Shown: positions 20,555 through 37,665 of the stretch, piece by piece
Position numbering within the stretch: position 1 is the first letter of the stretch
How the letters are laid out: the number at the start of each line of letters is the position of its first letter
Source: a virus
DNA: 41,347 nucleotides
IMG/VR virus record: IMGVR_UViG_3300025889_000082
Span: 1-41,347 of that record
Reading direction: 5' to 3' (one strand)
The notes under the pieces: model-generated
What the model saw: only the letters and a program-made list of their open reading frames with translations
Databases searched by the model: none
Told to the model about the DNA's origin: nothing
Made by a program: the position numbers and the translations under genes

Positions 20555-20562
20555 GTTTTTTC
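20540..20562. terminator. Bidirectional terminator between convergent genes
   Basis: GAAAAAACT at 20540-20548 and AGTTTTTTC at 20554-20562 form a 9-bp stem with a 5-nt loop, with A and T runs that give U-tracts in both directions. It overlaps the stop codons of both convergent genes. The stem is AT-rich, so its strength is uncertain. Confidence 0.55.
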
Positions 20563-21614: not shown

Positions 21615-22623
21615 ATGCTTCTATGTATAATTGTTTTGTTATTTCAGATGTGTATTCTTTACCTATTATACGAACGTTGTCGTAATATTTCTTTAATATC
21701 TTACACACTTCCAACCAGCTTCTACTTTTACGTGCATTTAGCATTTCTTTTCTTCTGTGGTCATAGGTTTTAATTGTTTCTTCTATACCTGTAATAACAG
21801 CAGCTGTACTAATTTCAGGTATCACCCACATACCATCCATATGTCTACTTCCTTTGTAAGTTCCCACAATGGGAATAGCACATGCTGTGGCTTCCATAAG
21901 TGTTAGGTTAGGATGGCCTGCTTCTAGCATAGATGGATGTAAGAATATATCATGTGTTTGATATAGCTCTCTCATCTCTTCATCTGTAGGATTTGTTAAC
22001 TTTAAAGTTAACTTTGGATAGTCTAATAAGTCTTTATGAATTTCAAAGAACTTTTGGTTATCAGGATGACCAGCTATAGTGATAGGAAGATTCAACTGCT
22101 TAGCTGCTTCTATACCATATCTAAATCCTTTTCTATCAAACCCACTGTCTCCACCTAGTCCATTGTTAGCTATCATCAATAGTGCATATTCAAATGTAGT
22201 TGTGAAAGCATAGTTTGGTGTAAAGAAATCTGTATCTGCACCATGTGGTAGGTAGAACAACTTATCCACTGTATCAAAGTAGTCTATTAAATACTCAGCA
22301 TGTGTAAAGGATATAATACTTCCTTTCATAGCTTCTACATTCTGATTGTACACCCAGCTATCTTTACCATACCATTCTGTGTGGTGGTCATGTAGTGAAT
22401 AGATATAAGGGATGCCTCTATCTTTACAGTCTAGAGCTAAGTTAGCAAGATGTACATGTACTATCTGGTCAGGCTTTTTCTCCACCTGATTGATATATTG
22501 TATATCAACAGTTTCTCCTAGTTGTTCTAGTCCTTGTTTATATGCCCATATAAGTCTTTCTACAGCACCCCAACCATTTGGTGGGATGGTAATTAATCCT
22601 GTGGCTACTTGTACTATCCCCAT
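21601..22623 (-). CDS. Glycosyltransferase family 4-like protein
   Basis: This 340-residue GT-B protein begins VQVATGLITIPPNGWGAVERLIW, the usual GT4 acceptor-side start with a Gly-rich loop. The N-terminal half holds IVHVHLANLAL and YIYSLHDHH. The C-terminal half holds ITIAGHPDN, LYQTHDIFLHPSMLEAGHPNLTLMEATACAIPIVGT, which is the GT4 E-x(7)-E-type donor-binding region. It transfers a sugar from a nucleotide donor; donor and acceptor cannot be read from sequence. It overlaps both neighbours (14 nt and 10 nt), so it is co-translated within the operon. Confidence 0.85.
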   Translation of the reverse strand: MGIVQVATGLITIPPNGWGAVERLIWAYKQGLEQLGETVDIQYINQVEKKPDQIVHVHLANLALDCKDRGIPYIYSLHDHHTEWYGKDSWVYNQNVEAMKGSIISFTHAEYLIDYFDTVDKLFYLPHGADTDFFTPNYAFTTTFEYALLMIANNGLGGDSGFDRKGFRYGIEAAKQLNLPITIAGHPDNQKFFEIHKDLLDYPKLTLKLTNPTDEEMRELYQTHDIFLHPSMLEAGHPNLTLMEATACAIPIVGTYKGSRHMDGMWVIPEISTAAVITGIEETIKTYDHRRKEMLNARKSRSWLEVCKILKKYYDNVRIIGKEYTSEITKQLYIEAYGNL

Positions 22624-23306
22624 TTTCTTTCAAATTTAATTTTGTCTTCCTCCATTTTCTTAATGCTTTCAGGAGTGAGCTTGGTTATATTTACGCTCCT
22701 TAAATGACAAACAATAGAATCTTTTACCAAGGCATGTTTAATACCATGTTTCATCAACATTCTTGCATAGTCATTGTCTTGGTAATACATATCAAACTGC
22801 TCATCAAAAGGACTAATCTTATCTAGTGCTTCCTTTTTAATAACTAAACACCAACCCATCACTGCTTCATGTACAGTGTAGTCTTCAAAGTACTTAGATG
22901 GACTATCTATAAAATGCCAATCAAAAAACCTTATATATAATGCAGGATCTTTTGGAGAGAAAGAATGTATGTCTGGTCTTTCTTTACTAATAGCCATTAT
23001 TTCAGATAGCCAGTTCTTCTCATAACCTACATCATTGTTAGATATGATAACCCATTCTGATGTTACATAGTTCATAGCAATGTTAATAAACTTGTTATAG
23101 TTAAATGGTTCATTAGGCTTAATGTAATTGGCTACTATTTGTGTTTCAAGATAGTCTTTTGTATAGTCATCTCCTGACTCCACTAAGTGTATCTTGAACT
23201 TATATCCTATTTCACTATCACGTAGGGTGTATATAGTTCTTAAAGTCATTCTAAGATTCTTTTCAGTCTTAGTATTTGTAAGTATGATTACGTCTATTGT
23301 TTGCAT
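22614..23306 (-). CDS. Glycosyltransferase family 2-like protein
   Basis: A 230-residue GT-A protein: IDVIILTNTKTEKNLRMTLRTI at the start, the DxD-equivalent SNND at residues 89-92, and GWCLVIKKEALDKISPFDEQF with a following YQDNDYARMLMKHG, as in rhamnosyl- and related transferases of GT2. It lacks membrane segments, so it acts in the cytoplasm. It sits between the methyltransferase and the GT4 gene, 2 nt and -10 nt away. Confidence 0.85.
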   Translation of the reverse strand: MQTIDVIILTNTKTEKNLRMTLRTIYTLRDSEIGYKFKIHLVESGDDYTKDYLETQIVANYIKPNEPFNYNKFINIAMNYVTSEWVIISNNDVGYEKNWLSEIMAISKERPDIHSFSPKDPALYIRFFDWHFIDSPSKYFEDYTVHEAVMGWCLVIKKEALDKISPFDEQFDMYYQDNDYARMLMKHGIKHALVKDSIVCHLRSVNITKLTPESIKKMEEDKIKFERKWG

Positions 23307-23308
23307 GT

Positions 23309-23860
23309 TTATTTTTTTAATAGTCCCCAGAAGTATAAATCACAGCTATTCTCATCTACATAGAAATGATGTGCAGCAAAATACTTATCTAAATCTATAG
23401 CTGCTCTTACATCTAATTCTGTAACATTCATATAATACCCAGCCCAATCTTCTTCTTGTATTGTGAATGGACTATCTTGTGGATCAAATATACTAGTTCC
23501 ATGTGTAGGTCTTCCTGTCGTAGCACATGTAAATAAAAACAATCCTCCTGGACGTAATAGATTATCTATAACATTCTGGATAGTTTCCTTCCAATACATA
23601 TCATGTTCAAACACTTCTGTGCTTATAACAGTGTCATACTTTTTACCATCTATAGGTCTGTATTCATGTCCTTTACTTACAACATTTACATTTCTACCCT
23701 TACCAATATCTATACCAATATAGGAATAGTCTTCAAATAGATAGTGATTGTTACCATTTAAGTCTAGTGAACCAATGTCACAGACATTTACATTATTGAA
23801 ATACTCAGGAAAGATTTGTTTTACAAAGTTGCAAAATGCTTGCTCTGCTGGATGTGCCAT
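23309..23860 (-). CDS. Class I SAM-dependent methyltransferase
   Basis: The 183-residue protein has motif I as VCDIGSLDLNGN (residues 26-37), YIGIDIGKGRNVNVV as the acidic strand-2 motif, YDTVISTEVFEHDMYW near residues 75-90 and LLRPGGLFLFTC near 101-112: a complete Methyltransf_11-type Rossmann fold. It probably methylates a sugar being built by the surrounding transferases, perhaps as a cap. It is one base from the neighbouring GT gene and 2 nt from the GT2 gene. Confidence 0.85.
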   Translation of the reverse strand: MAHPAEQAFCNFVKQIFPEYFNNVNVCDIGSLDLNGNNHYLFEDYSYIGIDIGKGRNVNVVSKGHEYRPIDGKKYDTVISTEVFEHDMYWKETIQNVIDNLLRPGGLFLFTCATTGRPTHGTSIFDPQDSPFTIQEEDWAGYYMNVTELDVRAAIDLDKYFAAHHFYVDENSCDLYFWGLLKK

Positions 23861-23861
23861 A

Positions 23862-24848
23862 TTAGTTTAATTTAATTGTTCCCTTTTCTTTAAACAGGGA
23901 TAAGTTTTGGTTGGTTAATGTAAATTTCTTAGACAAAAATAAGTATTTTTTATCAATGTCATACACTTCTACACGTATTTCTTCTCCATCTAATTTGTAT
24001 GTATTGAACCAGTAGTGTCCTTTACCTAATATCTGTGTTTGTGTTAGTTCATTATTCTTGTAAATGTCAACATGTTTCCACTCTTCTAGTATAAGTGTAT
24101 TCATTATAAATAGAACAGGCTCTTCTGGAACCACCTCATTATACAATAGCTCACAGTTAAAGAGTCCATATCTAAGCACATTCACATCACTGTCTGTGAA
24201 GATGTTAGAGCTATGGTCATGTACTAGTAAGAACTGGTCTTCATGTTTACTAAACTGTTCGTAGAAAGATAGTTCTAATGTATAGCCCATAGGAATTCTT
24301 AACCACTCGTGTACATCTAATGGAGGTTGGAATGTATATAGGAAGTAGTCTAGATTACCACCAAACAATAAGGTTTCATATACATAAGAACCTTCACAGT
24401 CCCTATACTCCTCAGGTCTAAAGAATAACATCTTCTTACCCAAGCCACCCATTTCATCCATCAGTCCAACTAGTTTTGCTGCATCAGGTTGAGATAGAAG
24501 AACATCACACTCTGTAAATACAAACTCATCATAGCCCATTGCTTTTGCTAGGTTCATTCCAGCTCTCATGTTTCTGCATATAGGTAGTGTGTGTCCTGCA
24601 TTAAATATATTTATAATATATTCATCTGTTTGAAACCACCAGTTGGGAGTGTATGTAGGGGGGAGGAAGGTGTTGTTGCTATCATAGATGGTATATTGCA
24701 CCTTTTCAGCAGTGGCTTTATCAATTGGCAAATGAGCTACAATCATAATATCCCACCCTGTATGTTTGAATCCATCTATACATCTGTTAAGAATATCTAT
24801 CTCTCTTTGACCAGATGGATAACAATCTATAATAGCTATTCTTTTCAT
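23862..24848 (-). CDS. GT-A-like putative glycosyltransferase
   Basis: This 328-residue protein starts MKRIAIIDCYPSGQREIDILNRCIDGFKHTGWDIMIVAHLPID and contains MGYDEFVFTECDVLLSQP, where ECDV takes the place of a DxD metal site. The same layout (IIIGTYPN ... IMLVSHYPVDDET ... YKRVFYNTYDVVVDSKD) occurs in the middle module of the upstream 883-residue protein, so the two are paralogous. The C-terminal 80 residues are beta-rich. It overlaps the upstream gene by 4 nt (ATGA). A glycosyltransferase is the best guess; family unassigned. Confidence 0.65.
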   Translation of the reverse strand: MKRIAIIDCYPSGQREIDILNRCIDGFKHTGWDIMIVAHLPIDKATAEKVQYTIYDSNNTFLPPTYTPNWWFQTDEYIINIFNAGHTLPICRNMRAGMNLAKAMGYDEFVFTECDVLLSQPDAAKLVGLMDEMGGLGKKMLFFRPEEYRDCEGSYVYETLLFGGNLDYFLYTFQPPLDVHEWLRIPMGYTLELSFYEQFSKHEDQFLLVHDHSSNIFTDSDVNVLRYGLFNCELLYNEVVPEEPVLFIMNTLILEEWKHVDIYKNNELTQTQILGKGHYWFNTYKLDGEEIRVEVYDIDKKYLFLSKKFTLTNQNLSLFKEKGTIKLN

Positions 24849-27496
24849 TTCTTTCTAAATGATTTTTCCATGTTGTCTATTAAGGAGAATCCATCTGCTT
24901 GGGTAGTAAGTCTTTCGTACACAATACCCATCTTTTGGTTGTTAAATATAATGTTGAAATACATATCTGCAGCATCCCAAGGTTCTTTACGTAATGTTTC
25001 TTTCAACCATGGAGCTATATGTATAGGGAACATAATTGATTGTAAACCAATGATATGATCTGTTTCATACATTACATCATTAATCTTTCTCACCTCAGGG
25101 CTTTGTGGCCAGCCATGTTCTAATGTATCTTTATCTCCAAAGGACATGAATTCAATATTGTTAATAATCATTTCATGTGCACAGCTTTCCACAGTGGATA
25201 TGAAGTGTTCAATTGGTGCTTCAATAATACAATCACCTTCACACACCATCAAGAAATCACAGTCATGGAATTCACTTAGGATGGCATCTCTGAATGCTTG
25301 GTAGCATCCATAATGTGCTGGGGTAAGTGCAGTGCCATACTGTTGAACTTGCTGTTCATTGAAGAGTTCCATTGAAACACAAAAGGGCCTGATGCAGTTG
25401 TGCTCAGGTGGTAATGATCTGTAGGGATAGTTAAGATGTAATTTGTATTCCCATCCATGGTCTCTAACTCTTTCAAGGGATGCTCTGCTAGCTTGTTCTC
25501 TTTCATCGTTTAATGTAGTTTGTATATGAACTAATTTAATTCTAGGTCTTTCTTTCTTCTTAAATTCAAACCTACCTGTGCTTTGATACTTATCTAAATT
25601 GTCCTTATGTAGGGTGTGTTTTTCTATCTTGTAGCAATGGTCTCCATCATAGAAGTCTAGTTGTATATCAATAGGCTCTCCCTTAAATACAAAAGGATAC
25701 ATCCATTCTCTAGTCTTAGCCACCTGTATTCTCTTATCTATATCACCAATAGTAACATATATAGTTCTATGGTCTACATTATATGTAAAGAAATAGAACA
25801 TATAATTGTTTGGTTTTCCAACAATTGGTATAATAGAATAATATTCACTGTTAGAAGATGTGCCTAAGCCACTATGAACCAATAAGGTTTCTTGTTCATT
25901 GGTGATTATTTCTGTATTATCATCAGTGATTCTCTTTGATAGATAGTCTTCTAGGAAGTTATGAGCTCCTATCCACTCACAGATTCTGTTGTATTCTTGT
26001 GGATCTGTAGCGTCATCAAATGTCTTCAAGAAATAATCTACATCATACATCATTCCATTGGTCTGAATTCCCTTACCCATAGGTGTAGGGAGGGTAGCTA
26101 CATATGCGTTCTTACCAGAGGATAATGCTTTTTCAATAACATCTAAATCTTTACTATCTACCACCACATCATATGTATTGTAGAACACTCTCTTATATCC
26201 ATTCTGTTTAGCAGCTTTCATTCCATTGAATATATTAACTAACACTGTAAGGGACTGGTTGGTATCCTTCAATCCATTGATATTAATCTCAGCATAGTAG
26301 TTAGGAGTATCATTATAAAACCTAGTGTAATAGCTATGATGAGTGAGTGGGTTGTTCTTGTCATATACATAATAGTCTACCATGCGTTGTGTCTCATCGT
26401 CTACAGGATAGTGACTTACTAACATAATCTTTCTACCTAAGGGCTTCATAGATTGTATTGTACGTTTTGTAAGACTAACTCTTTCCTTCAGATTGGGATA
26501 GGTACCTATGATGATAAGTTCCTCATCTAATCTGTTGAGATTTAGACGTATCATAATATTAACTAAATCAAAAGAAACATCTCCTGTTAGATACATAACA
26601 TCTTCCTGTCCATTATACTTATTACAATACACATCTAGATTATACATCATCTTAATTAAGTCAGGATACTCCATGGCTTCTTTGATGGCTATAGGGTTTA
26701 GTTCCTTATTGCCTCTGTCTCCTTTGGATGGGAAGAAGAACACATCACATGCCTGTAAGAATTCAGATACATCATTACGTTCTCCCCAGACAACACAATT
26801 ATCTGGTTTGTTATTCATCAATGGTTCCCAATAGTCTTTAAAGTTGTCTGCTTGGTTACCTAGGAAATGAAACTTCACCTTATACTTCTCCAAGTGCTTA
26901 GCTATTTCAAAAGCATAGGCTTGGTTCTTTCTTGGAGTGAACAATCCCACTATAGCAAAGTGTTTATATGCAGGATCTAAGCCTAGTTTATTCTGCATCT
27001 CTATTTTGTTACGCTCTTTCTTATCTATAGGGTATTCAATAATCTCTGTTGGAACAGGTAAGTTTACATATTTAAAAGCATTGTATGCACTAACAAATAT
27101 AAATTTATCAGGTAGATAGTATTTATGTTTAGGATTGAAAGAACTATCATGTGTAGTTTCTACTATCTTCCAAGGTTTTTTTAAATCATACAAGTAGTCT
27201 GCAGATTGTCTATCTAAGAACATCTCTGGAAACTCTTCCATAGCTATTACATCTGGTTGCCAGTTCTCTACCACTCTTGTAAGCTCTTCATACTTGTTCT
27301 CTCCTAGGGATATAAAGTTGTTAACTCCTACTAGTTCTATAATTCTATTTCTTTGCACTACAAAGTTCCATGCTATGAATGCATGTTCTATCACTAATAT
27401 ATCAAACACATCCTTAAGAAGTGCTATCTTATTCACTGTTACCTGAGGGGCTCCTCCTGTTGATAGATGAGGAGTGATTACTAATAGTTTTTTCAT
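24845..27496 (-). CDS. Three-module glycosyltransferase (GT4-like + GT-A-like + GT25-like)
   Basis: I place the start at ATG 27496 (MKKLLVITPHLSTGGAPQV), because it makes an ATGA overlap with the upstream gene's stop; this gives 883 residues. Residues 1-330 are a GT-B/GT4-like module (THDSSFNPKHKYYLPDKFIFVS, FAIVGLFTPRKNQAYAFEIA, FLQACDVFFFPS). Residues about 330-620 resemble the next gene's product, with NTYDVVVDS as candidate metal site. Residues about 640-883 carry LTPAHYGCYQAFRDAI and DFLMVCEGDCII, similar to the 'GAVGCFLSH ... ALILEDD' layout of GT25 enzymes. A single polypeptide could add successive sugars. It is the second gene of the operon. Module families are assigned by eye. Confidence 0.75.
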   Translation of the reverse strand: MKKLLVITPHLSTGGAPQVTVNKIALLKDVFDILVIEHAFIAWNFVVQRNRIIELVGVNNFISLGENKYEELTRVVENWQPDVIAMEEFPEMFLDRQSADYLYDLKKPWKIVETTHDSSFNPKHKYYLPDKFIFVSAYNAFKYVNLPVPTEIIEYPIDKKERNKIEMQNKLGLDPAYKHFAIVGLFTPRKNQAYAFEIAKHLEKYKVKFHFLGNQADNFKDYWEPLMNNKPDNCVVWGERNDVSEFLQACDVFFFPSKGDRGNKELNPIAIKEAMEYPDLIKMMYNLDVYCNKYNGQEDVMYLTGDVSFDLVNIMIRLNLNRLDEELIIIGTYPNLKERVSLTKRTIQSMKPLGRKIMLVSHYPVDDETQRMVDYYVYDKNNPLTHHSYYTRFYNDTPNYYAEININGLKDTNQSLTVLVNIFNGMKAAKQNGYKRVFYNTYDVVVDSKDLDVIEKALSSGKNAYVATLPTPMGKGIQTNGMMYDVDYFLKTFDDATDPQEYNRICEWIGAHNFLEDYLSKRITDDNTEIITNEQETLLVHSGLGTSSNSEYYSIIPIVGKPNNYMFYFFTYNVDHRTIYVTIGDIDKRIQVAKTREWMYPFVFKGEPIDIQLDFYDGDHCYKIEKHTLHKDNLDKYQSTGRFEFKKKERPRIKLVHIQTTLNDEREQASRASLERVRDHGWEYKLHLNYPYRSLPPEHNCIRPFCVSMELFNEQQVQQYGTALTPAHYGCYQAFRDAILSEFHDCDFLMVCEGDCIIEAPIEHFISTVESCAHEMIINNIEFMSFGDKDTLEHGWPQSPEVRKINDVMYETDHIIGLQSIMFPIHIAPWLKETLRKEPWDAADMYFNIIFNNQKMGIVYERLTTQADGFSLIDNMEKSFRKK

Positions 27497-28431
27497 ATAA
27501 GTCTGGATATTATATTTATAACGTGTTCTACAGATGGATGGCATTCAAATGTTTCTTTCTTCTCTAAGCATCCAATTAGAGGTTGTACAGAGTCTATAGT
27601 GTCCCAATACTCAAGAGCATATTTCATGTTAGAGCTGCAATGTAATCCACAGCTTCCTCCAATATATTCATGTCTCCACCCCTGCTCTCCATATCTATAA
27701 GGAGTTCTAAACTCAGGATTGATAGCTGATCCTAATTCAAATATTAATGTTTCAGTGGTGGCTGCTAGATGTAGAATACCAGAGTCCATAGTGACTACAG
27801 CTGTAGAATTGTTAAGGATGTACCAAGTTTCAGATATGGATGTCTGATTCATTAGGTTGATGATGTTGGTGTTTCCTAATTCATGTACAGGTTTGTTTAC
27901 ATTAAAGAAACCTGTCTCAGAACTATCTTTACCTATGGCAACCACTTTGTATCCCAGCTCAATTAACTTTTCAGATAGTTTAAGCCAATTATCTTGAGAC
28001 CAAGTTCTATTAGGCCAGCTGTTAACAGGATGTATCACTACATATTTACCTGATATATTGTTAACCATTTGTTCTGTTGGTCTATAGAAACAATCCATCT
28101 CATCTCTTCTAAGCATAAATCCTAAATGAATTGCATGGAACTGCCTGATATCCATCATGTTATGCTTCATTTCTACACCTCTCTCATCCTTCTTACCTAC
28201 CAAATAGAATGAATTATGAACAATGTAATTACTTTGTATATACTCCATGTCTATAGAGCTGTTCTTATAGCTCTTCTCTACATAAGGATTCATCTTAAAT
28301 AACTCAGGCATCTGAGACAGTATAGTTATCTTTCTACCATAGCTTTCAGATAGTTTTTTGATGGTGGGAGTAGCACAAATAAGGTCCCCAAGACCATTAC
28401 ATTCTGATAAGTTTAAACAAACTGGTTTCAT
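27493..28431 (-). CDS. Glycosyltransferase family 9 (heptosyltransferase-like)
   Basis: The 312-residue protein shows the GT9 pattern: GLGDLICATPTIKKL (residues 13-27), VVIHPVNSWPNRTWSQDNW (131-149), and TMDSGILHLAATT (214-226), which is the conserved nucleotide-sugar-binding region. GT9 enzymes transfer ADP-heptose or related sugars. It is the promoter-proximal gene of the - strand operon, about 11 nt from the predicted transcript start, and pairs well with the distal TibC-like transferase that also belongs to the heptosyltransferase world. Actual donor is unproven. Confidence 0.85.
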   Translation of the reverse strand: MKPVCLNLSECNGLGDLICATPTIKKLSESYGRKITILSQMPELFKMNPYVEKSYKNSSIDMEYIQSNYIVHNSFYLVGKKDERGVEMKHNMMDIRQFHAIHLGFMLRRDEMDCFYRPTEQMVNNISGKYVVIHPVNSWPNRTWSQDNWLKLSEKLIELGYKVVAIGKDSSETGFFNVNKPVHELGNTNIINLMNQTSISETWYILNNSTAVVTMDSGILHLAATTETLIFELGSAINPEFRTPYRYGEQGWRHEYIGGSCGLHCSSNMKYALEYWDTIDSVQPLIGCLEKKETFECHPSVEHVINIISRLI

Positions 28432-28981: not shown

Positions 28982-29278
28982 ATGAGAGAAAATTCTAGTA
29001 TCCAAGCCTTCAAGGTGTGGGTGTTCCCTAGCCTAGTATCAATCATCAGCCTTTTAATATGGAATGATGTAAATGAAATCAAGTCTGATGTCAAAGCCCT
29101 AATGGCCCAGTCTAATATAGACAAGACACGTATTGATAACCTTGAAAGACAGGTATACAAAACAACTGCTTCCTATCCTACTATTCCCCCTGTGACACCA
29201 GTGGTAATGGAAACTGTAGGGGTTCTTCCTGAACAATTAACACTTAAACAGAAAAAGTATGAAAAAGTTCTTCTCTGA
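28982..29278 (+). CDS. Small membrane-anchored protein of the lysis region
   Basis: The 98-residue protein has one N-terminal membrane segment (VWVFPSLVSIISLLIW, about residues 12-27), then a heptad-like stretch (DVNEIKSDVKALMAQSNIDKTRIDNLERQVY) that should form a coiled coil, then a Pro/Thr-rich tail. The overlapping downstream gene (20 nt) is a holin-like protein, so this is probably part of the lysis cassette: an antiholin, a pinholin partner or an inner-membrane spanin are all consistent with the topology. No family recognised. Confidence 0.6.
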   Translation: MRENSSIQAFKVWVFPSLVSIISLLIWNDVNEIKSDVKALMAQSNIDKTRIDNLERQVYKTTASYPTIPPVTPVVMETVGVLPEQLTLKQKKYEKVLL

Positions 29279-29501
29279 TCTATTTAATGACAGTAATTCA
29301 ATTAATGAGAAAGCTGTAATTGGATTTGCAGCATTTGTTATGATGGTGGTGTTTGCTGTAGCAGATATTGTTACAGGGGCTATGAATAAACCACTCTTAG
29401 TTAATGAGTTCATATTTGACTCATTCAAGGTGTTAACTATTGCTTGCTTTGGTATTGCATCTGTTGACAAATGGATAAATAAAACCAAAGGAAATGAATA
29501 A
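29259..29501 (+). CDS. Putative holin
   Basis: An 80-residue protein with two membrane segments, about residues 19-42 (VIGFAAFVMMVVFAVADIVTGA) and 54-72 (FDSFKVLTIACFGIASVD), and a charged C-terminus (KWINKTKGNE). Size, topology and position three genes ahead of a GH19 endolysin fit a phage holin, which would let the endolysin reach the cell wall. It overlaps the previous gene by 20 nt and the next one by 8 nt. Confidence 0.65.
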   Translation: MKKFFSDLFNDSNSINEKAVIGFAAFVMMVVFAVADIVTGAMNKPLLVNEFIFDSFKVLTIACFGIASVDKWINKTKGNE

Positions 29502-30090
29502 ACTTCTTACAGGAATAATAGTGGTGCTAGTGTTTTATGTAGCGTTCTCAAAGAATGGCTGCACTCCTAAGCATCAGAAGTCTGATACAACTATTGTACA
29601 TGATACAACCTGGTCTGTACATGATAGTCTTATTTACAGCAAACCTAAACCTGCTAAGATTATACATGACACTATTCCTCCAATCTTCTTAGCTGATACA
29701 AACTATGCACGTCTTAAACAACAGTATGATTCTTTATTAAAAGAATTCTTTGCTCTTAAGATATATGCTGATACAGTGAGACTAGACACTCTTGGATATG
29801 TTTCTATTATAGACTCTGTGCAGAAGAATGGTATATTAGGTAGATCATTCCACACAAACTATAAGATTCCTACAGTGACTGTTACTAAGACTATCACTCA
29901 CTATGCTCCTCCTACATCAGCTCTATTCTTTGGTGGTGGTGTTCAGGGTAACAAGACCATGGGAGTAACAGGTGCTCATATTGGACTTCTTTATAAGTCT
30001 AAGAAAGATAAAATCGTTGGACTCAACGTGGGCTCAACCATAGGTGAACAATTAACCTTTGGCATAAGCTCTTATTGGAAAATTAAATAA
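29494..30090 (+). CDS. Membrane-anchored periplasmic protein, spanin-like candidate
   Basis: The 198-residue product has an N-terminal hydrophobic segment (LLTGIIVVLVFYVAFS) followed by KNGC, possibly a lipobox-like cysteine, then a periplasmic region with repeats of 'VHDT/IHDT', a helical middle (YARLKQQYDSLLKEFFALK) and a C-terminal beta-rich part (ALFFGGGVQGNKTMG ... LTFGISSYWKIK). Proteins of this shape with 'HDT' repeats occur in Bacteroidota phages (similar to DUF6808, from memory). Its place between holin and endolysin candidates suggests spanin-like work in outer-membrane disruption, but this is inference from context. Confidence 0.55.
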   Translation: MNKLLTGIIVVLVFYVAFSKNGCTPKHQKSDTTIVHDTTWSVHDSLIYSKPKPAKIIHDTIPPIFLADTNYARLKQQYDSLLKEFFALKIYADTVRLDTLGYVSIIDSVQKNGILGRSFHTNYKIPTVTVTKTITHYAPPTSALFFGGGVQGNKTMGVTGAHIGLLYKSKKDKIVGLNVGSTIGEQLTFGISSYWKIK

Positions 30091-30097
30091 AAATAAC

Positions 30098-30277
30098 ATG
30101 AGTATTATATCATTTATTAAATCATTGTTTGCTAAACGTGAAGAACATGTTAAATCTGTTGAACAAATAGACAAACAAATAGAAGAGGCTTTATATAAAG
30201 TTGAACCTGTAGAAGCTAAACCTAAGAAGAAAGCTAAAAAGAAACCTGCAAAAAAGAAAGTAAATGGATCTAAGTAA
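30098..30277 (+). CDS. Small lysine-rich hypothetical protein, 59 residues
   Basis: ATG 30098 opens a 59-codon frame ending TAA 30275-30277, overlapping the endolysin start by 14 nt and following the previous stop by 7 nt. The N-terminus is helical (MSIISFIKSLFAKREEHV), then EQIDKQIEEALYKVE, and the C-terminal third is nearly all Lys, Ala and Pro (KPKKKAKKKPAKKK). The amphipathic start could touch membrane and the tail could bind nucleic acid or lipid. It lies inside the lysis operon; function unknown. Confidence 0.65.
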   Translation: MSIISFIKSLFAKREEHVKSVEQIDKQIEEALYKVEPVEAKPKKKAKKKPAKKKVNGSK

Positions 30278-30863
30278 GTTAAAAGGACATGTTCCTGATA
30301 AAGTGATAGAACAAATTCCTGGTATACAGGAAAAGTTTGGCATTAATACAGGGCTAAGACTTGCTCATTTCCTAGCACAAGCTGGTCATGAAAGTGGTGG
30401 TTTTAGAATAGTTAATGAAAACCTTAACTATTCAGCTAAAGGATTGCAGGGTATATTCAAAAAGTATTTCCCTTCTGAAGCTGTAGCTTTAGATTATGCT
30501 AAGAAACCACAGAAGATTGCTAATAGGGTGTATTCTGGTAGAATGGGTAATGGTAATGAAGCTAGTGGAGATGGCTATAAATTCAGAGGAAGAGGATATA
30601 TTCAATTGACAGGACGTGATAATTACACAGCATTTGGTAAGTCAATTGGTGTAGCTATAGAAGAGAACCCTGACTTGGTGTCTACACAATATGCACTATC
30701 ATCAGCTGCTTGGTTTTGGAGCAAAAACAATTTGAATAAGATTGCAGATACAGGAGCTACAGATGCTGCTGTTACAATGATTACTAAGAGAGTGAATGGT
30801 GGTACCATTGGCTTGGCTGATAGAATTAAACACTTTAAAGAATTTTATTCACTACTAACATAA
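30264..30863 (+). CDS. GH19 endolysin (chitinase/lysozyme-type)
   Basis: The 199-residue protein is a full-length single-domain glycoside hydrolase 19 lysozyme, which cuts the peptidoglycan sugar backbone to release virions. AHFLAQAGHESGGF places the general acid at E43, E99 (GNGNEASGDG) is the probable second acid, and FRGRGYIQLTGRDNY (108-121) is the hallmark GH19 segment. NLNYSAKGLQGIFKKYFP also matches the family. There is no signal peptide, so a holin is needed, and candidates lie just upstream. It overlaps the small Lys-rich gene by 14 nt. Confidence 0.92.
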   Translation: MDLSKLKGHVPDKVIEQIPGIQEKFGINTGLRLAHFLAQAGHESGGFRIVNENLNYSAKGLQGIFKKYFPSEAVALDYAKKPQKIANRVYSGRMGNGNEASGDGYKFRGRGYIQLTGRDNYTAFGKSIGVAIEENPDLVSTQYALSSAAWFWSKNNLNKIADTGATDAAVTMITKRVNGGTIGLADRIKHFKEFYSLLT

Positions 30864-30869
30864 ACCAAC

Positions 30870-30998
30870 ATGGCAAAAGCAAAAAATGCAGGCAGTGCTA
30901 AGAAGATCACTTTTGGAAAACGCAAGGGTGGTAAAGCTGCTAAGACGTCAGGACCTAAAGATAAAGCTGTAAGTAAATACAGAGGACAAGGAAGATGA
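30870..30998 (+). CDS. Small basic protein, 42 residues
   Basis: ATG 30870 opens a 42-codon frame ending TGA 30996-30998, which makes an ATGA overlap with the next gene. The product is very basic: GKRKGGKAAKTSGPKDK and a C-terminal KYRGQGR. Similar tiny Lys/Gly-rich proteins recur in Bacteroidota phages and in this window (33829, 40942). A nucleic-acid- or virion-binding role is possible but not shown. Confidence 0.7.
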   Translation: MAKAKNAGSAKKITFGKRKGGKAAKTSGPKDKAVSKYRGQGR

Positions 30999-31459
30999 TA
31001 AATTTATTATTGATATTAACATTATGGTTTCAAACACCATCTGTTGCCATTGGTAATATAACAAACAAGGTGAAGATTGGAGCACTTGCTGGTAATCGTA
31101 AACTTGAGTTTGGTGTAAGAAATGTTTTAGAAGAAATCCTACAGGACAAGAGCTATGACATAGACCATAGCTCTGATAGTAGATTAGATATTGACATTAT
31201 ATATTTAGATGTTCTAAAAACACAATCTAGTTTTTCTGTAATGCATTCTAACAAAGAGTCTGTAGTTATTAGACTATATGGAACAATAATTAAAGATGGT
31301 AAAGTTATTAAGAAAGCTCTTGTTGAAGAGTCTGCAGATGAAACAAGTATGTCCACTTTATTGATAGATGAGGGGGGCAAATTTAACCAACAGAATCTAT
31401 CCACAGCTTTGAAGAAAGCATGTAATTCACTGGTTAACAAACTATTAGACACAAAATAA
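30995..31459 (+). CDS. Exported protein, possible CsgG/TolB-N-like alpha/beta fold
   Basis: The 154-residue protein has a short hydrophobic start (MINLLLILTLWFQTPSVA) that looks like a signal peptide, then KVKIGALAGNRKLEFGVRNVLEEILQDKSYDI, LDIDIIYLDVLK, VVIRLYGTIIKDGKVIKKALVEE and a C-terminal helix (NLSTALKKACNSLVNKLLD). This order of strand, helix, strands and final helix parallels the periplasmic domain of CsgG-like proteins but without the pore-forming hairpins. It starts a run of exported proteins and abuts the next start codon directly. Family membership is a guess from pattern. Confidence 0.55.
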   Translation: MINLLLILTLWFQTPSVAIGNITNKVKIGALAGNRKLEFGVRNVLEEILQDKSYDIDHSSDSRLDIDIIYLDVLKTQSSFSVMHSNKESVVIRLYGTIIKDGKVIKKALVEESADETSMSTLLIDEGGKFNQQNLSTALKKACNSLVNKLLDTK

Positions 31460-33148
31460 ATGAAAAAACTACTATTTTTTGTCACAATTTTTCAAATAAT
31501 TGTGACATTTTCTTATGCACAACTTCCAGAATTAAGGTTAACACCTACAGTTCAAAGCGTCAATTCAAGAGGAACTCAGATAGTTAAGGGAGATACAATT
31601 GTTCTTGACCTTGAGCTTAAACCAAATGGTTCAGCTGTAAGGTCTTTTTACTTAGATTTCCAACATCAGATTACAGCTATCAATTTTATTGATGTTGTAT
31701 TTCCAACATCAAGCTCAGCTCTTCCACAAGGAGCTACTGCTACCTTCCAGAATAACTACTATCCTGGATACACATTCAATAAGAATGCTAACAACACAAC
31801 TACAGATGGTCTTACCAACTTTAACTATGCTAACTATACATATACACAAGGAGGTAACAAAGCCATCAATCGTATATGGATTAACACAGCTTCTGCTACC
31901 AATCTTAGTGATGGAGTTATTGGCAGATTAAGATTTAAGGTGGCTAATATAGATGCAGGTTTTGCATATGACTCAGTGTATTTTAATGCTGCTTATGCAT
32001 ACACAGCAAACTATAACACCCTAAGTAGTGTATACATGCCTAAGCCTACAGGGGCTTGGGTAACACCTATTCCTAGTTCAAATGCTTTGATTAATGGTCA
32101 GGTGGATGTAGGTAAGATTGTTCCTACAATATATATTGTGGACACATTAAGTGGTATTGTCAAAGCACAAGTGACTCCTTCAACTAATGGTACCTTCTTC
32201 TTAGGATCTGAACTATCTCCTAATACATGGTATAGAGCATTTGCTGTAGTGCCTTCAGATAGTTTAGGTAGTTATTTGAATAAAGCCATTACAGTTAGTG
32301 ATTATACAGCAGCACAGAATGAGTTTATCAAACAGGATTTGTTTGGAGGATTTACATTAACCACTATGAAATCAGGAGCTAGTTTCTTAGCTGCTGATGT
32401 AAATAAAAATTACAGATTTGATGGTGGAGATTTAACAGCTTTGTTTGCTCAGGTAAGTTTAGTAGATACAATTATTAGACCTACTGCTGGTCAAACTGTA
32501 TATACAATTCCAATGTTTGCAGCTAGTGAATTTGATACATTGTCTCCTGCTTACTGGCATACAGCTAATCAATATGGTGTATTGTTTAAGACAGGAACTA
32601 CAGCTCAAGATTTAAAACTTAAATACTTAATCCCTGGAGACATTAACAGATCACATAGCTCTCAGGTGGTTCTTCCAGATAACACAATACAAGCATACAG
32701 TGTGAAAGCATCTGCTGTGAACACTACAAGAAAGCCTGGTACAATTGATGTAAGTTTAAACAATCTTACAGTGTTAGGTAATGAATTCACAATTCCTATC
32801 AATGTAGATACAAAAGGAGACACATTATCAGGACTACAGTTTGAATTTGTATATGATCCAGCTAAGGTGAAGTTTGAGTCAATAAAGATAGACATGCCTA
32901 CATGGTTAGTATTTGTTAACAACACTGCTGGAAAGATAAAGTTTGGGGCTGTAGACAGAGAACTAAGAACAGGATACACAGGTGGAACACCATTTAAGTT
33001 AGTGTTCTCTACACTAGAAAATGGATTAAACATCAACTCTGCTATCAAAGTGACAGAAAACATGGATGCTTCTAATATGCAGGGTACTCAGTTAGGTATG
33101 AATCTAAACTCAACAACAATTAAATTAACAGGATATAACAACTTCTAA
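31460..33148 (+). CDS. Secreted protein with cohesin-like and dockerin-like modules
   Basis: A 562-residue protein with a clear signal peptide (MKKLLFFVTIFQIIVTFSYAQ). Residues about 25-200 and 415-560 are beta-sandwich regions resembling cohesins (FTIPINVDTKGDTLSGLQFEFVYDPAKVKFESI in the second). Between them is a fibronectin/carboxypeptidase-regulatory-like stretch and, at residues 312-325, ADVNKNYRFDGGDL, where D313, N315, N317 and D324 resemble a dockerin/EF-hand calcium loop. Cohesin-dockerin pairs hold together extracellular complexes. A phage copy with a Sec signal is unusual. It lies in the exported cluster and its stop overlaps the lipoprotein start (TAATG). Confidence 0.65.
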   Translation: MKKLLFFVTIFQIIVTFSYAQLPELRLTPTVQSVNSRGTQIVKGDTIVLDLELKPNGSAVRSFYLDFQHQITAINFIDVVFPTSSSALPQGATATFQNNYYPGYTFNKNANNTTTDGLTNFNYANYTYTQGGNKAINRIWINTASATNLSDGVIGRLRFKVANIDAGFAYDSVYFNAAYAYTANYNTLSSVYMPKPTGAWVTPIPSSNALINGQVDVGKIVPTIYIVDTLSGIVKAQVTPSTNGTFFLGSELSPNTWYRAFAVVPSDSLGSYLNKAITVSDYTAAQNEFIKQDLFGGFTLTTMKSGASFLAADVNKNYRFDGGDLTALFAQVSLVDTIIRPTAGQTVYTIPMFAASEFDTLSPAYWHTANQYGVLFKTGTTAQDLKLKYLIPGDINRSHSSQVVLPDNTIQAYSVKASAVNTTRKPGTIDVSLNNLTVLGNEFTIPINVDTKGDTLSGLQFEFVYDPAKVKFESIKIDMPTWLVFVNNTAGKIKFGAVDRELRTGYTGGTPFKLVFSTLENGLNINSAIKVTENMDASNMQGTQLGMNLNSTTIKLTGYNNF

Positions 33149-33519
33149 TGAAAGAATTAAAAGTATTACTAGGAATTTATTTCCTAATCATTATAACAGT
33201 GATTGCTTGTACAAAGGTGGCATCTGTACCAGTAATTGAACTAGGTGAAAAAGCTACAGCTACAAAGATTAATAGTGTATATCCTCCTATCACTACAGGT
33301 AAGGTGGTAGCTAATCTATCAGTGACTCCTGGAGCTAAATATTCAATTCAGTTAACTAATTTAACTGGAGATGTTAAATATGCAACAGGTTTTACAGCTG
33401 ATAAAACATTGGTAACTAAGGATTTAGACTACTCAGATGTTAAATCTGGAGACTATATGATTGTATTAATTGATATAGCTGGTAATGAATATAAACATAA
33501 TATAACTATTAAAAAATAA
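33148..33519 (+). CDS. Putative lipoprotein, 123 residues
   Basis: The N-terminus MKELKVLLGIYFLIIITVIAC is a lipoprotein signal with cysteine at position 21, so the mature protein should be lipid-anchored. The remaining 100 residues look like one beta-sandwich (GKVVANLSVTPGAKYSIQLTNLTGD ... DYMIVLIDIAGNEYKHNITIKK). It is translationally coupled to the cohesin-like gene (TAATG overlap) and followed 5 nt later by a membrane protein. No specific family recognised. Confidence 0.7.
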   Translation: MKELKVLLGIYFLIIITVIACTKVASVPVIELGEKATATKINSVYPPITTGKVVANLSVTPGAKYSIQLTNLTGDVKYATGFTADKTLVTKDLDYSDVKSGDYMIVLIDIAGNEYKHNITIKK

Positions 33520-33524
33520 TCAAC

Positions 33525-33827
33525 ATGGCAGAAGAAAAAGAAGAATCAACTGGTACCTCTATCAAGAGCATTATCATTGGTTTAATCAGCACAATCACAC
33601 TAGGTGTGGGTGGTTTTATTACAACTAAGTTAACAGGAGGTGATGAGAAAGAAACTCCAGCTCAACAAGCTGCTCCAGTTATTAACATCCAAAATACCAA
33701 TCAACAGTCTCAAGCTGCAGGTGGTAAAACTGTTATCATCAAGGAGAAAGAAGCTGCAACTAAACCTGCACCTGCTCCTAAGAAGAAAGAAGGGGATGAA
33801 TTTAAAGAAGAAGCTCCAAAGTGGTAA
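33525..33827 (+). CDS. Small single-pass membrane protein, 100 residues
   Basis: After an acidic start (MAEEKEESTG) comes one membrane segment (IIIGLISTITLGVGGFITT, residues 16-34), a Gln/Asn-rich linker (VINIQNTNQQSQAAGG) and a Lys/Pro/Ala tail (KPAPAPKKKEGDEF). It follows the lipoprotein by 5 nt. The topology is compatible with an inner-membrane linker or small holin-associated protein. Unrecognised. Confidence 0.65.
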   Translation: MAEEKEESTGTSIKSIIIGLISTITLGVGGFITTKLTGGDEKETPAQQAAPVINIQNTNQQSQAAGGKTVIIKEKEAATKPAPAPKKKEGDEFKEEAPKW

Positions 33828-33828
33828 T

Positions 33829-33966
33829 ATGGCACAGAAGAAAAAGAAACCTGTTGCTCAGAGATCTAGAAGATCTGGTATAAAGAAAGCTGAGCTAGTA
33901 AAATCAAACCAAGAAACAATTGCAAACGTATGGACTTATTTAAACACAAACCAGCTGAGAAAGTAG
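33829..33966 (+). CDS. Small basic protein, 45 residues
   Basis: ATG 33829 opens a 45-codon frame (AQKKKKPVAQRSRRSGIKKAE ...) ending at 33966, after a 1-nt gap from the previous stop. A longer in-frame start at 33640 would run antiparallel in phase to the preceding membrane protein gene and is unlikely. The last 37 nt overlap the next gene. Highly basic N-terminal half; function unknown. Confidence 0.55.
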   Translation: MAQKKKKPVAQRSRRSGIKKAELVKSNQETIANVWTYLNTNQLRK

Positions 33967-34520
33967 AACAACCTTCAGGGTTCAAAGAATTATTAAATGC
34001 TATGATGCTTAGACGTTGGTATATCACAGCGTTGGTATTAGGATCATTTGTGTTAATCATAGGTGGAATATTTATGGCTCTTAACAATAACATATCTGCT
34101 GCTGCAGAATGGAAAGAGCTGTTGTTATTAATGTTAGGTGCATTCATTGGTAGCTATGGTAAAATCATAGACTACTGGTTCTCTGATACAGACAAGGATA
34201 AGATGTTAGTACAGAAGATGGATGAGGAAGATGGTACTACACTGTCTCACACCAATGATATGAAGGAGTCTAACAAACCTGTAGCTCCATTGATTCCTGA
34301 TGCATTTGTGCAAGGAGCTGTAGCTGCTAGAGAACTTGCTAAAGATGAGCAAGAGCATAGACAAGCTATGGAGATTGATGAACAAGAGCATGAGCAAGAA
34401 ATGGAAAAGCTCAAGCTTGAACATGAGATCAAAGCACATAGACAATGTGATCATGTATATGCTGACGTGGATCATGATGGTGACTATGAATGTATTCACT
34501 GTGGTAAAATCAAAGAATAA
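33930..34520 (+). CDS. Two-TM, holin-like membrane protein with coiled coil and C-terminal zinc-ribbon-like motif
   Basis: The 196-residue protein has two membrane segments, about 30-52 (WYITALVLGSFVLIIGGIFMA) and 62-82 (ELLLLMLGAFIGSYGKIIDYWF); 'LGAFIGSYGKIIDYWFS' resembles the 3TM phage holin family. A long Glu/His-rich coiled coil (residues about 130-170) follows, and the end has C-D-H ... C-x2-C-G-K, a small zinc-ribbon-like cluster. The coupling of a holin-like head to a metal-binding tail is odd. It overlaps the next gene by one base (TAATG). Confidence 0.6.
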   Translation: MDLFKHKPAEKVEQPSGFKELLNAMMLRRWYITALVLGSFVLIIGGIFMALNNNISAAAEWKELLLLMLGAFIGSYGKIIDYWFSDTDKDKMLVQKMDEEDGTTLSHTNDMKESNKPVAPLIPDAFVQGAVAARELAKDEQEHRQAMEIDEQEHEQEMEKLKLEHEIKAHRQCDHVYADVDHDGDYECIHCGKIKE

Positions 34521-35239
34521 TGATTAAAATATTATTAGTGTTTGTAACATTTTTATATACAAATTTGTTACAAGCACAATTAGCAAAGACTTCTACAGAG
34601 CAGTATAAAGCTAGCTTTGAGAAGGCTATTGATATTTCAAGCTTTATGGATTATGAAGGACCTCAAATCCCCATCCAAATCCTTAAGTGTGGTATCAATG
34701 ATGAGATGTATGAGATGTACCCTGAGCTGAAAGAGAAACGTGTAGGCTTAGGTGTGGCTAATATATCCATGGAATATTTAGAGAATCTAAACAGATTCAA
34801 GTTTACAGAAGATAAGACTGAAATCAAGAACAGGATGGTGAAGCAGTTCCAAGCTAGTCAAGCTGGAATATCTGAGAACAAACTGGATGGACGTGGCAAG
34901 ATTAACCTTGCTAAGTATTTTGTAACTATTGAATGTTATGATTATAGTATTTCAGAAGATGAGACTATTTCTCTTAAAGAGGGTACAAAGCAACTTATGG
35001 TTACCAGGATTGGTTTACAGGTTAGATTCACTGATGCTGAGACTGGAGTGGTATTTAGTGGTTCTGGGCTTGGTGATGCAAAGACTACTAAAGAAACTGC
35101 TGGTATAACTTCTGATGCTGCTTTAGATCCTGTTAAGTTTAATCAATCTACTATATCAATAGCAACTAAGAAAGCACTAGATATAGCTTGTGCTAGGATA
35201 TTAGATAGGATGGTGAAGAAAGGGATCTTCACAAAATAA
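34520..35239 (+). CDS. CsgG-like secreted protein (outer-membrane pore candidate)
   Basis: A 239-residue protein with signal peptide (MIKILLVFVTFLYTNLLQAQ, no lipobox cysteine). The core follows CsgG order: RVGLGVANISMEYL, then FKFTEDKTEIKNRMVKQFQ (the helix before the pore in CsgG), AKYFVTIECYDYSI, VTRIGLQVRFTDAETGVVFSGSGLGDA (matching the 'VNLRVVNVSTGEILSS' strand pair) and a final helix STISIATKKALDIACARILD. CsgG forms the outer-membrane channel that exports curli. Here it is followed at once (TAATG) by an outer-membrane barrel candidate. The similarity is at fold-pattern level; a pore function in phage infection is inferred. Confidence 0.6.
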   Translation: MIKILLVFVTFLYTNLLQAQLAKTSTEQYKASFEKAIDISSFMDYEGPQIPIQILKCGINDEMYEMYPELKEKRVGLGVANISMEYLENLNRFKFTEDKTEIKNRMVKQFQASQAGISENKLDGRGKINLAKYFVTIECYDYSISEDETISLKEGTKQLMVTRIGLQVRFTDAETGVVFSGSGLGDAKTTKETAGITSDAALDPVKFNQSTISIATKKALDIACARILDRMVKKGIFTK

Positions 35240-36462
35240 TGAAACAGTTTATTTTTATTCTAATAGCAGTAGTATTACTACCAGTATATGCGTATTCTCA
35301 AACCATTATACAAACTTGGACAGATCCTTGTACAAAAGTTACAAGCGTCTTTAGTATTCCTATTACTGGCTCTACCACTATTATTATTTATAATAAATCT
35401 AAAACTTTTACAGCTAGTGATGTTTATAGTGGGGCTTTTCAAGCCTGGATCAGTCAAGCTTTCGAGGAGTATAAAAAGTTCTCTGCGTGCTCAGTGGCTC
35501 AAGCAACACAAACTGCTACAAATATTACAGCATCTGCTGTCTCGTCAGCTGTAGGTGGAGCTGTTGCATCAGCAGCTAGCTCTGCTGCTTCCTCTGCAGC
35601 AAGTGCTGCAGCTTCTAGTGCAGCTAGTTCTGCTGGTGGAAGTGTAGCTACAGGAGGTGGAGACACAGGTGGGGGTGGATCAACATCCTCTTCTAGTTCA
35701 GAGTCTAGCTCTGGTGGAGGAGGAGGAGAATCAAAATCTGAATCCAAATCAGAAAGTAAATCTGAAAGTAAGGGGGGAGGGGGTAAGTCAGGAGGTAAGG
35801 GGGGAGGTAAAGCTCAAGCTAAGATGAACCCTATACTATTCAACTCTGACTTGACAGCAGGACAGACAATGGATAACTCTATACAGCTTGTAGTGACATC
35901 TGGTATATCACAGTCATCCATGGCTGGTGATGTAAGCTGGGGACTCACAGGAATGGTGTGGAGTAATCTTCAGCAGTTTGCTCTAAGTGGACGCTACACC
36001 AAAATGAACTTTGATGAAGGTAAATTAAGTAGGATAGATAATACTGGTGCTACCATAGTACATGCTTTTGGTAACACTTTTGGTTTCTTAACATATGCAC
36101 AAATATATCCACTAGGAAAATGGGGAGTGACAGGCATAAATGCTACAGTGGCTGTTCAAAAATCAGAACAACAATTCACTACAACTCATTCATTACTAGT
36201 GTTTTATACTAAACCATTTACAATTAACAGAAAACTGACCATATCTCCTGACCTATATATCTCTGGGAGCCCTGTAACTTATGGAATAAAGGATAACACC
36301 TTTGTGATAAGTGAAGATATAATGTTCCTTACAGGCTTCAATATGGACTACTCAATTACAAAAAGATTTAAGTTTAACACTGGTCTTAAGACTAGTCTAA
36401 GCACCAATCCTTCTATACCAATGCTGTTCTTTGCAGTGGTGGGAAGTAAGATAAATTTATAA
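35239..36462 (+). CDS. Exported protein with low-complexity Ala/Ser and Gly/Ser linkers and a beta-barrel-like C-terminus
   Basis: The 407-residue protein has a signal peptide (MKQFIFILIAVVLLPVYAYSQ), an N-terminal domain with one cysteine pair (C32, C75 by my count), then an Ala/Ser-rich helix-prone run (about 95-140), a Gly/Ser run and Lys-Ser-Glu repeats (about 140-190). The remainder (about 195-407) is beta-rich with alternating hydrophobics and ends in FFAVVGSKINL, compatible with an outer-membrane barrel. It is coupled to the CsgG-like gene. The terminator right at its stop marks the operon end. Specific family unrecognised. Confidence 0.6.
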   Translation: MKQFIFILIAVVLLPVYAYSQTIIQTWTDPCTKVTSVFSIPITGSTTIIIYNKSKTFTASDVYSGAFQAWISQAFEEYKKFSACSVAQATQTATNITASAVSSAVGGAVASAASSAASSAASAAASSAASSAGGSVATGGGDTGGGGSTSSSSSESSSGGGGGESKSESKSESKSESKGGGGKSGGKGGGKAQAKMNPILFNSDLTAGQTMDNSIQLVVTSGISQSSMAGDVSWGLTGMVWSNLQQFALSGRYTKMNFDEGKLSRIDNTGATIVHAFGNTFGFLTYAQIYPLGKWGVTGINATVAVQKSEQQFTTTHSLLVFYTKPFTINRKLTISPDLYISGSPVTYGIKDNTFVISEDIMFLTGFNMDYSITKRFKFNTGLKTSLSTNPSIPMLFFAVVGSKINL

Positions 36463-36555: not shown

Positions 36556-37665
36556 ATGGCAATACCAAGTAGACAGATAGGCTGGGGCACAACAGACAAC
36601 TTGTTGTGGGAAATCTCTAAACAGATAGAGGGCATTGGTTGTATCATTGCGTGTGGTACTTCTGGGTATGGTACGTCAGGTACATCAGGATACTCAGGAG
36701 ATAAGTATTTAACTACATCTAGTAGTTCATTTACACTAGGTACTTCTACAACATTAACTGTTGGAACTGGTTTAGCTTACACTGTAGCCCAAGACATCAT
36801 CATAGCACATGATATTGATAATCATCAAACTTGTATGGTTGAAAGCTATGATCCTGTTACAGGTATAATGGTTATAGGTCCTCCTTTTACAGTTACTGGT
36901 AGTGGAACCTATACATCTTGGTTTATTAATCTTGATGGAGCAGCTGGGGGTAATGGTACAAGTGGCACTTCTGGAACTTCTGGGTCATCAGGGTCATCTG
37001 GTTCTAGTGGAACTACAGGAACTAGTGGATCTTCAGGTAGCTCAGGAACTAGTGGAATAAAAGGAACAAGTGGCACTAGTGGTACAAATGGCTCTTCTGG
37101 TACTGCTGGAACAAGTGGGTCTTCAGGAACTTCTCCTGTGTTTCCTTTTCCAACAGTATTTGGATTATTCTCTCAAACAGGTGATAGTACTCCAGTTACA
37201 AATACAGTAACAGAAACAACAATCATTAATGGTGGTGTTGGTACACTGACTGTAGGAGCTAATCAATTTTCTGTTGGTGATAGTTTTAGAGCAGACTTTG
37301 GTGGTGTTGTAAGCACTGGTAATAATCAAACTATTAGACTTAGAGTGAAAGCAGGATCTGTAATATTGTTAGATAGTGGAGCACAGAATATAAATAATGT
37401 TACTAACAATGTTTGGTCTTTATCAATCAACTTTACTATTAGACAGTTAGGTGCTGCAGGTGTAGCGTCAATTGTTTCTTTAGGAACATTTAATTATGCT
37501 AAGACAGTAAATGGTACTGTGGAAGGATTTTCTTTCAATACTGTGAATAACACTACATTTAACACAACAGTTAGTAATACATTAGATGTTACAGTTGAAT
37601 GGGGTGCTGCTACTACAGCAAATACTATCTATAGTGACATATTTGTATTAAATAAAATATATTAA
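36556..37665 (+). CDS. Short collagen-like tail fibre protein
   Basis: The 369-residue protein starts MAIPSRQIGWGTTDNLLW, an N-terminal module repeated in the next gene. Residues about 47-127 hold a domain (GDKY-TTS ... TVAQDIIIAHDIDN ... GSGTYTSWFINLDGAAGG) nearly the same as one just before block 1 of the long fibre. A 22-triplet Gly-Thr/Ser-Ser block follows, then a C-terminal beta domain (FSVGDSFRADFGGVV ... TIRLRVKAGSVILLDSG ... YSDIFVLNKIY) common in phage structural proteins and probably the tip. It lies in a unit with a glycosyltransferase gene. Virion location is inferred. Confidence 0.8.
   Translation: MAIPSRQIGWGTTDNLLWEISKQIEGIGCIIACGTSGYGTSGTSGYSGDKYLTTSSSSFTLGTSTTLTVGTGLAYTVAQDIIIAHDIDNHQTCMVESYDPVTGIMVIGPPFTVTGSGTYTSWFINLDGAAGGNGTSGTSGTSGSSGSSGSSGTTGTSGSSGSSGTSGIKGTSGTSGTNGSSGTAGTSGSSGTSPVFPFPTVFGLFSQTGDSTPVTNTVTETTIINGGVGTLTVGANQFSVGDSFRADFGGVVSTGNNQTIRLRVKAGSVILLDSGAQNINNVTNNVWSLSINFTIRQLGAAGVASIVSLGTFNYAKTVNGTVEGFSFNTVNNTTFNTTVSNTLDVTVEWGAATTANTIYSDIFVLNKIY
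36937..37134 (+). repeat. Collagen-like Gly-X-Y coding repeat, block 3
   Basis: About 22 triplets (GTS, GSS, GTT, GIK, GTN) that parallel the blocks in the long fibre gene 20 kb upstream. No proline. Synonymous codons vary from unit to unit. Confidence 0.9.

Follow-up and report, generated by a model that had tools for sequence, protein, structure and literature searches.

What does a phage do with a set of genes whose products are exported into the envelope of its host? This question is raised by positions 30995 to 36462 of the window analyzed here, which consists of bases 1-41347 of a 105,347-base IMG/VR virus record. Because the rest of the record encodes a terminase, a portal, a major head protein, a DNA polymerase, a ribonucleotide reductase and an rIIA-like gene, the virus was identified as a tailed phage. 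The original prediction described the region as a coupled, eight-gene envelope cluster. The evidence below supports this view of a phage-encoded cluster for exported envelope proteins, with a CsgG fold, a beta-barrel and a cohesin protein.

Layout of the cluster

The cluster contains eight ORFs on one strand, at 30995, 31460, 33148, 33525, 33829-33966 (45 aa), 33930, 34520 and 35239. They overlap or abut at 31459/31460, 33148, 33930-33966, 34520 and 35239. N-termini resembling Sec signal peptides were found in 31460, 34520 and 35239, while 30995 has a hydrophobic segment at its N-terminus and 33525 and 33930 contain transmembrane (TM) segments. The Sec signal calls made across families are heuristic and are also triggered by TM proteins. 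The coupling proposed for the eight genes is borne out by the shared strand and the abutting or overlapping ORFs. Four genes had been credited with Sec or lipoprotein signals; this holds for 31460, 34520, 35239 and the lipoprotein gene 33148, and the count becomes five if 30995 is included.

An endolysin gene (30264) precedes the cluster and a collagen-like tail-fiber gene (36556) follows it, so that the module lies between tail-fiber genes (13696-19344 and 36556-37665) and lysis genes. Terminator-like sites were more frequent than in shuffled sequences (14 vs 4.3), and since several of them fall within genes, the ends of the operon were left undefined. Promoter-like sites were no more frequent than in shuffles. 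A search of the cluster with PADLOC and NCBIfam returned no anti-phage defense model and only a negligible OmpA-lipoprotein match, in the neighboring gene 29494.

Distribution and conservation

Relatives of 34520 are encoded on 483 stretches in IMG/VR. When the corresponding protein of the Flavobacterium phage immuto was the query, 113 stretches were found, a set that may overlap with the 483. The environmental contigs bearing the module range from fragments to records of more than 300 kb, and the viruses that carry it number in the hundreds, come from freshwater and infect Bacteroidota. Gene content was compared across 86 viral loci for which no less than 7.5 kb of upstream and 7 kb of downstream sequence was available, and which contain 63 distinct CsgG-like sequences. 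A core is found on one strand, made up of a small one-TM protein that we call TMPQ, the CsgG-like protein and the barrel (each 86/86), the cohesin protein (85/86) and a YajG-like protein (81/86). The recurrence of the cluster in all 86 adequately flanked loci and the median dN/dS of the CsgG-like protein confirm that it is real and conserved, and not a product of chance.

Median pairwise dN/dS, calculated for each family from its closest pairs (150 at most) and descriptive only because pairs share members, was 0.046 for the CsgG-like protein, 0.082 for the endolysin, 0.103 for the YajG-like protein, 0.129 for the membrane protein M2 (33930), 0.135 for the cohesin protein, 0.149 for TMPQ and 0.16 for the barrel. 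The CsgG-like protein is the most constrained of the families compared, and constraint on the cohesin protein, the barrel and TMPQ is weaker.

Among annotated phages, only Immutovirus records match 34520, and tblastn searches of phages with 30995 and 35239 gave no matches. The cultured Immutovirus, Flavobacterium phage vB_FspM_immuto_2-6A, carries the same module at gp013-gp019, with a syntenic set of cohesin, TMPQ, CsgG-like, barrel and YajG-like genes, and its gp017 is 50% identical to 34520. It also has a C-type lectin protein and a T9SS tag on its cohesin protein, and its annotation is mostly hypothetical. The original prediction had proposed looking for the gene set in related phages, where it is indeed seen, both in the sampled loci and in immuto. 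Virion proteomics for immuto were not found in the literature, and the phage goes unmentioned in the LMO8 paper (PMC7077304).

A bacterial collection with one genome per species (84,980 species) was searched with two peptide patterns, and the single match was one contig of a metagenome-assembled genome (MAG). When 396 genomes from the phylum of this MAG (titled Bacteroidetes) were searched with a profile, the same MAG was the sole match. The 254-kb contig (L163, CAIWBA010000291.1) also carries an endolysin gene and is possibly a binned phage.

Two CsgG/YajG-type proteins

The exported protein encoded at 34520-35239 (+ strand) has 239 aa and an alpha/beta core at about 34667-35218. Its AF2 model, made with 34 relatives as input, is of moderate confidence (pLDDT 74.6, pTM 0.68). 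Foldseek against the PDB placed CsgG on top (E 6e-7, TM-scores 0.40-0.50), followed by FlgT, GNA1162 and PelC. A significant Pfam match is lacking for the protein itself, but a homolog hits the CsgG family (PF03783, E 2.3e-4), and the profile of 34520, which matches E. coli CsgG over 25 columns only, aligns with it in a plausible register. A PDB sequence search with the CsgG-like profile gave nothing usable. The fold comparison, the Pfam-matching homolog and the profile register support a CsgG alpha/beta fold in 34520, as had been predicted.

The further reading, that this protein is itself the outer-membrane channel, is not supported. Each CsgG subunit has two transmembrane hairpins. When 34520 is aligned to CsgG, HTVC008M and Melnitz, the stretch of pore hairpin 2 is absent, the moderate-confidence model likewise has no return strand after residues 178-193, and the hairpin 1 region is charged. 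The signal ends in ...LLQAQ without a lipobox, so the N-terminal lipidation of CsgG is not found either; a heuristic flagged a lipobox in 14 of the 162 members of the CsgG-like family. The outer-membrane element is more probably the barrel protein 35239.

The first gene of the cluster (30995-31459, + strand) encodes a core protein of 154 aa with a CsgG/YajG-type fold, probably exported or periplasmic, whose match to YajG (PF03923, E 3.4e-4) is below the cut-off. Profile comparison of its family with that of 34520 (probability 94.6%, E 7e-8) indicates that the two are mutually related, which gives the module two CsgG/YajG-type proteins.

CsgG/CsgF pairs have been described in pelagimyophages (PMC7029224), to which HTVC008M belongs, and in the Methylophilales phage Melnitz, where they were proposed to act in the timing of lysis (PMC9004378). 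Those systems share with ours a phage CsgG-fold exported protein that lies beside other exported proteins and whose function is unsettled. The fold of 34520 could thus reflect secretion of the curli type, in which an amyloid-like or other fiber is secreted as by these CsgGF operons, and the appearance of FapF, the Fap amyloid exporter, among the best fold matches of the barrel points the same way. HTVC008M and Melnitz have a CsgF and a CsgG recognizable by sequence, the latter 37-40% identical to E. coli CsgG, and adjoining curlin-associated genes. In contrast, our module has a CsgG-fold protein with only a 25-column profile match and no recognizable hairpin 2, together with a separate barrel, a cohesin protein and a YajG-like protein. 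No CsgA/B/E-like gene was recognized in the cluster, the family of 35239 compared with E. coli CsgF gave a probability of 0.1%, and CsgF was not detected in the other cluster proteins by Pfam comparison. With CsgF undetected and the second pore hairpin missing, assignment to the curli (type VIII) system was rejected, and we consider a curli-type secretion system like these phage CsgGF operons unlikely.

The barrel protein

The core gene at 35239-36462 (+ strand) encodes a protein of 407 aa with, in predicted order, a signal peptide, a small N-terminal domain with a Cys pair, a helix, a disordered linker and a 12-stranded outer-membrane beta-barrel (about 35824-36459). AF2 placed the 12 main strands at residues 199-406, and pLDDT in the barrel block was mostly 71-87. 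The nearest folds in Foldseek were FapF, KdgM and NanC, with the best E-values for FapF. Structure prediction returned both features that had been expected of the cluster, the CsgG fold and the exported barrel, the latter through its 12 strands and its barrel matches. A PDB sequence search with the barrel profile was unusable, its matches being low-complexity stretches in the linker.

FapF is a 12-stranded barrel with an N-terminal coiled coil and a disordered linker (PMC5557850). The predicted strands, helix and linker of 35239 resemble this arrangement, whereas sequence identity is 6-8% and a Fap operon is not recognizable. Because the NanC and KdgM barrels exceed FapF in target-normalized TM-score, with generic barrels scoring similarly, kinship with FapF is not established. 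PelB-PelC offers a second parallel, as it combines a CsgG-fold ring protein with a single-chain outer-membrane barrel (PMC12141448), and the Foldseek result suggests that 34520 is akin to PelC in fold. PelC is a lipoprotein and the PelB barrel has 16 strands (PMC12141448), whereas 34520 lacks a lipobox, our barrel has 12 predicted strands and no Pel biosynthesis genes were recognized; a ring of 34520 would be drawn from this analogy. Both parallels serve as works-like comparisons only.

The PelC analogy, along with glycosyltransferase matches next door (20547-28431), could mean that a PelBC-like ring and barrel export a polysaccharide made by these enzymes. No polymerase or inner-membrane synthase was recognized, however, the glycosyltransferase block was not seen within the conserved module, and the strand number differs from that of PelB. 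We regard this explanation as barely plausible.

The cohesin protein and putative cargo

The secreted protein encoded at 31460-33148 (+ strand; 562 aa) has a cohesin domain at about 32777-33115 (PF00963, E 1.9e-5, above the curated cut-off). It had been called cohesin/dockerin-like; the cohesin part stands, while the dockerin part comes down to one calcium-loop-like motif, DVNKNYRFDGGDL. In a sample of 27 family members, a cohesin match (at E 0.01) was found in 20, a T9SS C-terminal sorting domain in 12 and a weak Dockerin_1 match in 2; one lectin protein has a Dockerin_1 match below the cut-off. The 31460 protein of the window phage is without a T9SS sorting domain.

Other families accompany the module in part of the loci. 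A lectin-type family, with individual members matching Lectin_C, is near it in 53/86 loci, and 53 of 57 lectin-family proteins contain the calcium-loop pattern. A nuclease family with members that match Endonuclease_NS is near it in 15/86 loci. At loci L027, L126, L158 and L002, an exported DNA/RNA non-specific endonuclease adjoins the module. The predicted lipoprotein at 33148-33519 (+ strand; 123 aa, lipobox ITVIAC) is present in 29/86 loci, with the lipobox Cys21 invariant in 19 homologs. It may be a T9SS sorting domain that has split off as a separate gene, but its resemblance to such a domain is weak (Por_Secre_tail E 0.017, profile comparison probability 26%).

Lectins in relatives, and the position of the module between tail-fiber and lysis genes, might mean that the proteins belong to the particle, as virion-associated or host-recognition components. 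The Sec signal-like N-termini across families (called by the heuristic that TM proteins can also trigger) and a lipoprotein argue against this, as does the lack of a significant PHROG structural match, and we judge a virion role quite improbable.

Phage-encoded cargo with T9SS sorting domains is known from Cryophage (PMC7468147). There the cargo occurs alone, whereas in relatives of our phage tagged cohesin proteins belong to a conserved module with a putative ring and a barrel; the cohesin protein of the window phage differs from Cryophage cargo in lacking the tag. The original prediction knew of no described phage system of this kind. This was too broad with respect to phage CsgGF (PMC7029224, PMC9004378) and phage T9SS cargo (PMC7468147), both already described, but the composition of the module was not found described.

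Membrane proteins and the lysis genes

TMPQ (33525-33827, + strand; 100 aa) is a core protein with one TM segment, a Q/P/K-rich tail and a terminal W. The next gene (33829-33966, + strand), read within ORF 33640-33966, encodes a small basic protein of 45 aa with homologs 80-92% identical in L003, L004, L006 and L019. M2 (33930-34520, + strand; 196 aa) has two TM segments in a holin-like hydrophobic pattern and a C-terminus with a cysteine. It has no family match and is near the CsgG-like gene in 59/86 loci. Kinship of M2 with a holin-like family was tested and none was found. Since neither M2 nor a holin-like gene occurs within 3 kb in 23/86 loci, both were placed outside the core.

The lysis genes adjoining the cluster (28982-30863, + strand) are a one-TM gene (28982), a two-TM holin-like gene (29259), a candidate spanin (29494) and the endolysin (30264), which is GH19-like and matches PHROG 181 (E 2e-74). 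Size, position and TM pattern suggest the roles of 29259 as holin and 29494 as spanin. The candidate spanin (29494-30090) has an N-terminal TM segment, a charged middle and a C-terminal segment judged by eye to be rich in beta structure.

Among 36 contigs that are 100 kb or longer, 27 had an endolysin gene within the fetched stretch, compared with 4.8 expected under random placement, and after dereplication it was nearby in 5/5 vs 0.7 expected. This nearness supports late expression of the module, and because it is far more frequent than expected, disruption of the outer membrane for lysis is the main rival explanation. The barrel, the CsgG-like protein and the inner-membrane protein would open or tether the outer membrane after holin and endolysin, in place of a spanin. 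Such a role fits the several relatives in which a holin-like gene within the module is flanked by TMPQ and the CsgG-like gene, and the scarcity of the family related to the candidate spanin, which is near the module in only 25/86 loci. However, late genes cluster in phages anyway, which makes nearness to the endolysin, the sole late gene compared, weak evidence of shared function. The 23 loci without M2 or a holin-like gene within 3 kb also speak against lysis, as does the candidate spanin that the window phage has in 29494, and a lysis device would have no obvious use for the cohesin, lectin, T9SS-tagged and nuclease proteins. A lysis function is conceivable and, on balance, somewhat unlikely; if correct, it would represent a novel mechanism for breaching the Bacteroidota outer membrane.

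Proposed function

We favor, with slightly less than even confidence, a module specific to phages whose products assemble across the envelope of the infected Bacteroidota cell and export or anchor surface proteins late in infection. We base this on the fold of 34520, the barrel of 35239, the one-strand core in 86 loci and the two CsgG/YajG-type proteins, of which the putative ring protein is the most constrained. It also rests on the cohesin and T9SS domains of the 27 sampled proteins, the lectin and Endonuclease_NS neighbors, and the single match, on a possibly viral contig, in 396 sampled Bacteroidota genomes. Against it stand the moderate model of 34520, the lack of a T9SS domain in 31460 and the nearness of the endolysin, for which lysis is the more direct explanation.

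While the anatomy of the module is supported, we infer its topology, multimerization and function, and the ring and its pairing with the barrel are analogies. The CsgG-fold protein would form a periplasmic ring, as in PelC, and the barrel would cross the outer membrane and extend its N-terminal domain and helix into the periplasm. An anchor in the inner membrane may be provided by the one-TM protein. In the late phase of infection, this complex would export or anchor the co-encoded surface proteins, with cohesin and dockerin-like proteins as putative cargo, joined by C-type lectins and a nuclease in relatives and by the lipoprotein here. Where relatives have a T9SS sorting domain, the host T9SS may instead carry the cargo across the outer membrane, and the ring and barrel would be the anchor of this cargo. 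The outcome would be a changed cell surface, most simply one that blocks further infection or adheres to other cells.

A more specific and more tentative possibility is a widespread phage-specific machine, made of a CsgG-fold periplasmic ring, a 12-stranded outer-membrane barrel and an inner-membrane anchor, through which infected Bacteroidota cells would present a cohesin-dockerin-lectin scaffold at their surface. This would be a kind of surface organelle, made by the phage, not described before. If the envelope assembly is real, phages invest in envelope or surface structures on a dying host, which could help settle why they carry CsgG-like proteins at all. With hundreds of environmental viral contigs and one cultured Flavobacterium phage, the module is both common and testable.

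Other genes of the record

Two very large proteins of 2635 aa and 1853 aa are encoded at 71-7978 and 7991-13552, and neither has a Pfam or PHROG match. The block at 20547-28431 is on the minus strand, contains glycosyltransferase-like genes and a methyltransferase, and adjoins collagen-like tail-fiber genes. The rIIA-like gene is located at record positions 53482-55860 (L169:12483-14861) and matches PHROG 612 (E 9e-58).
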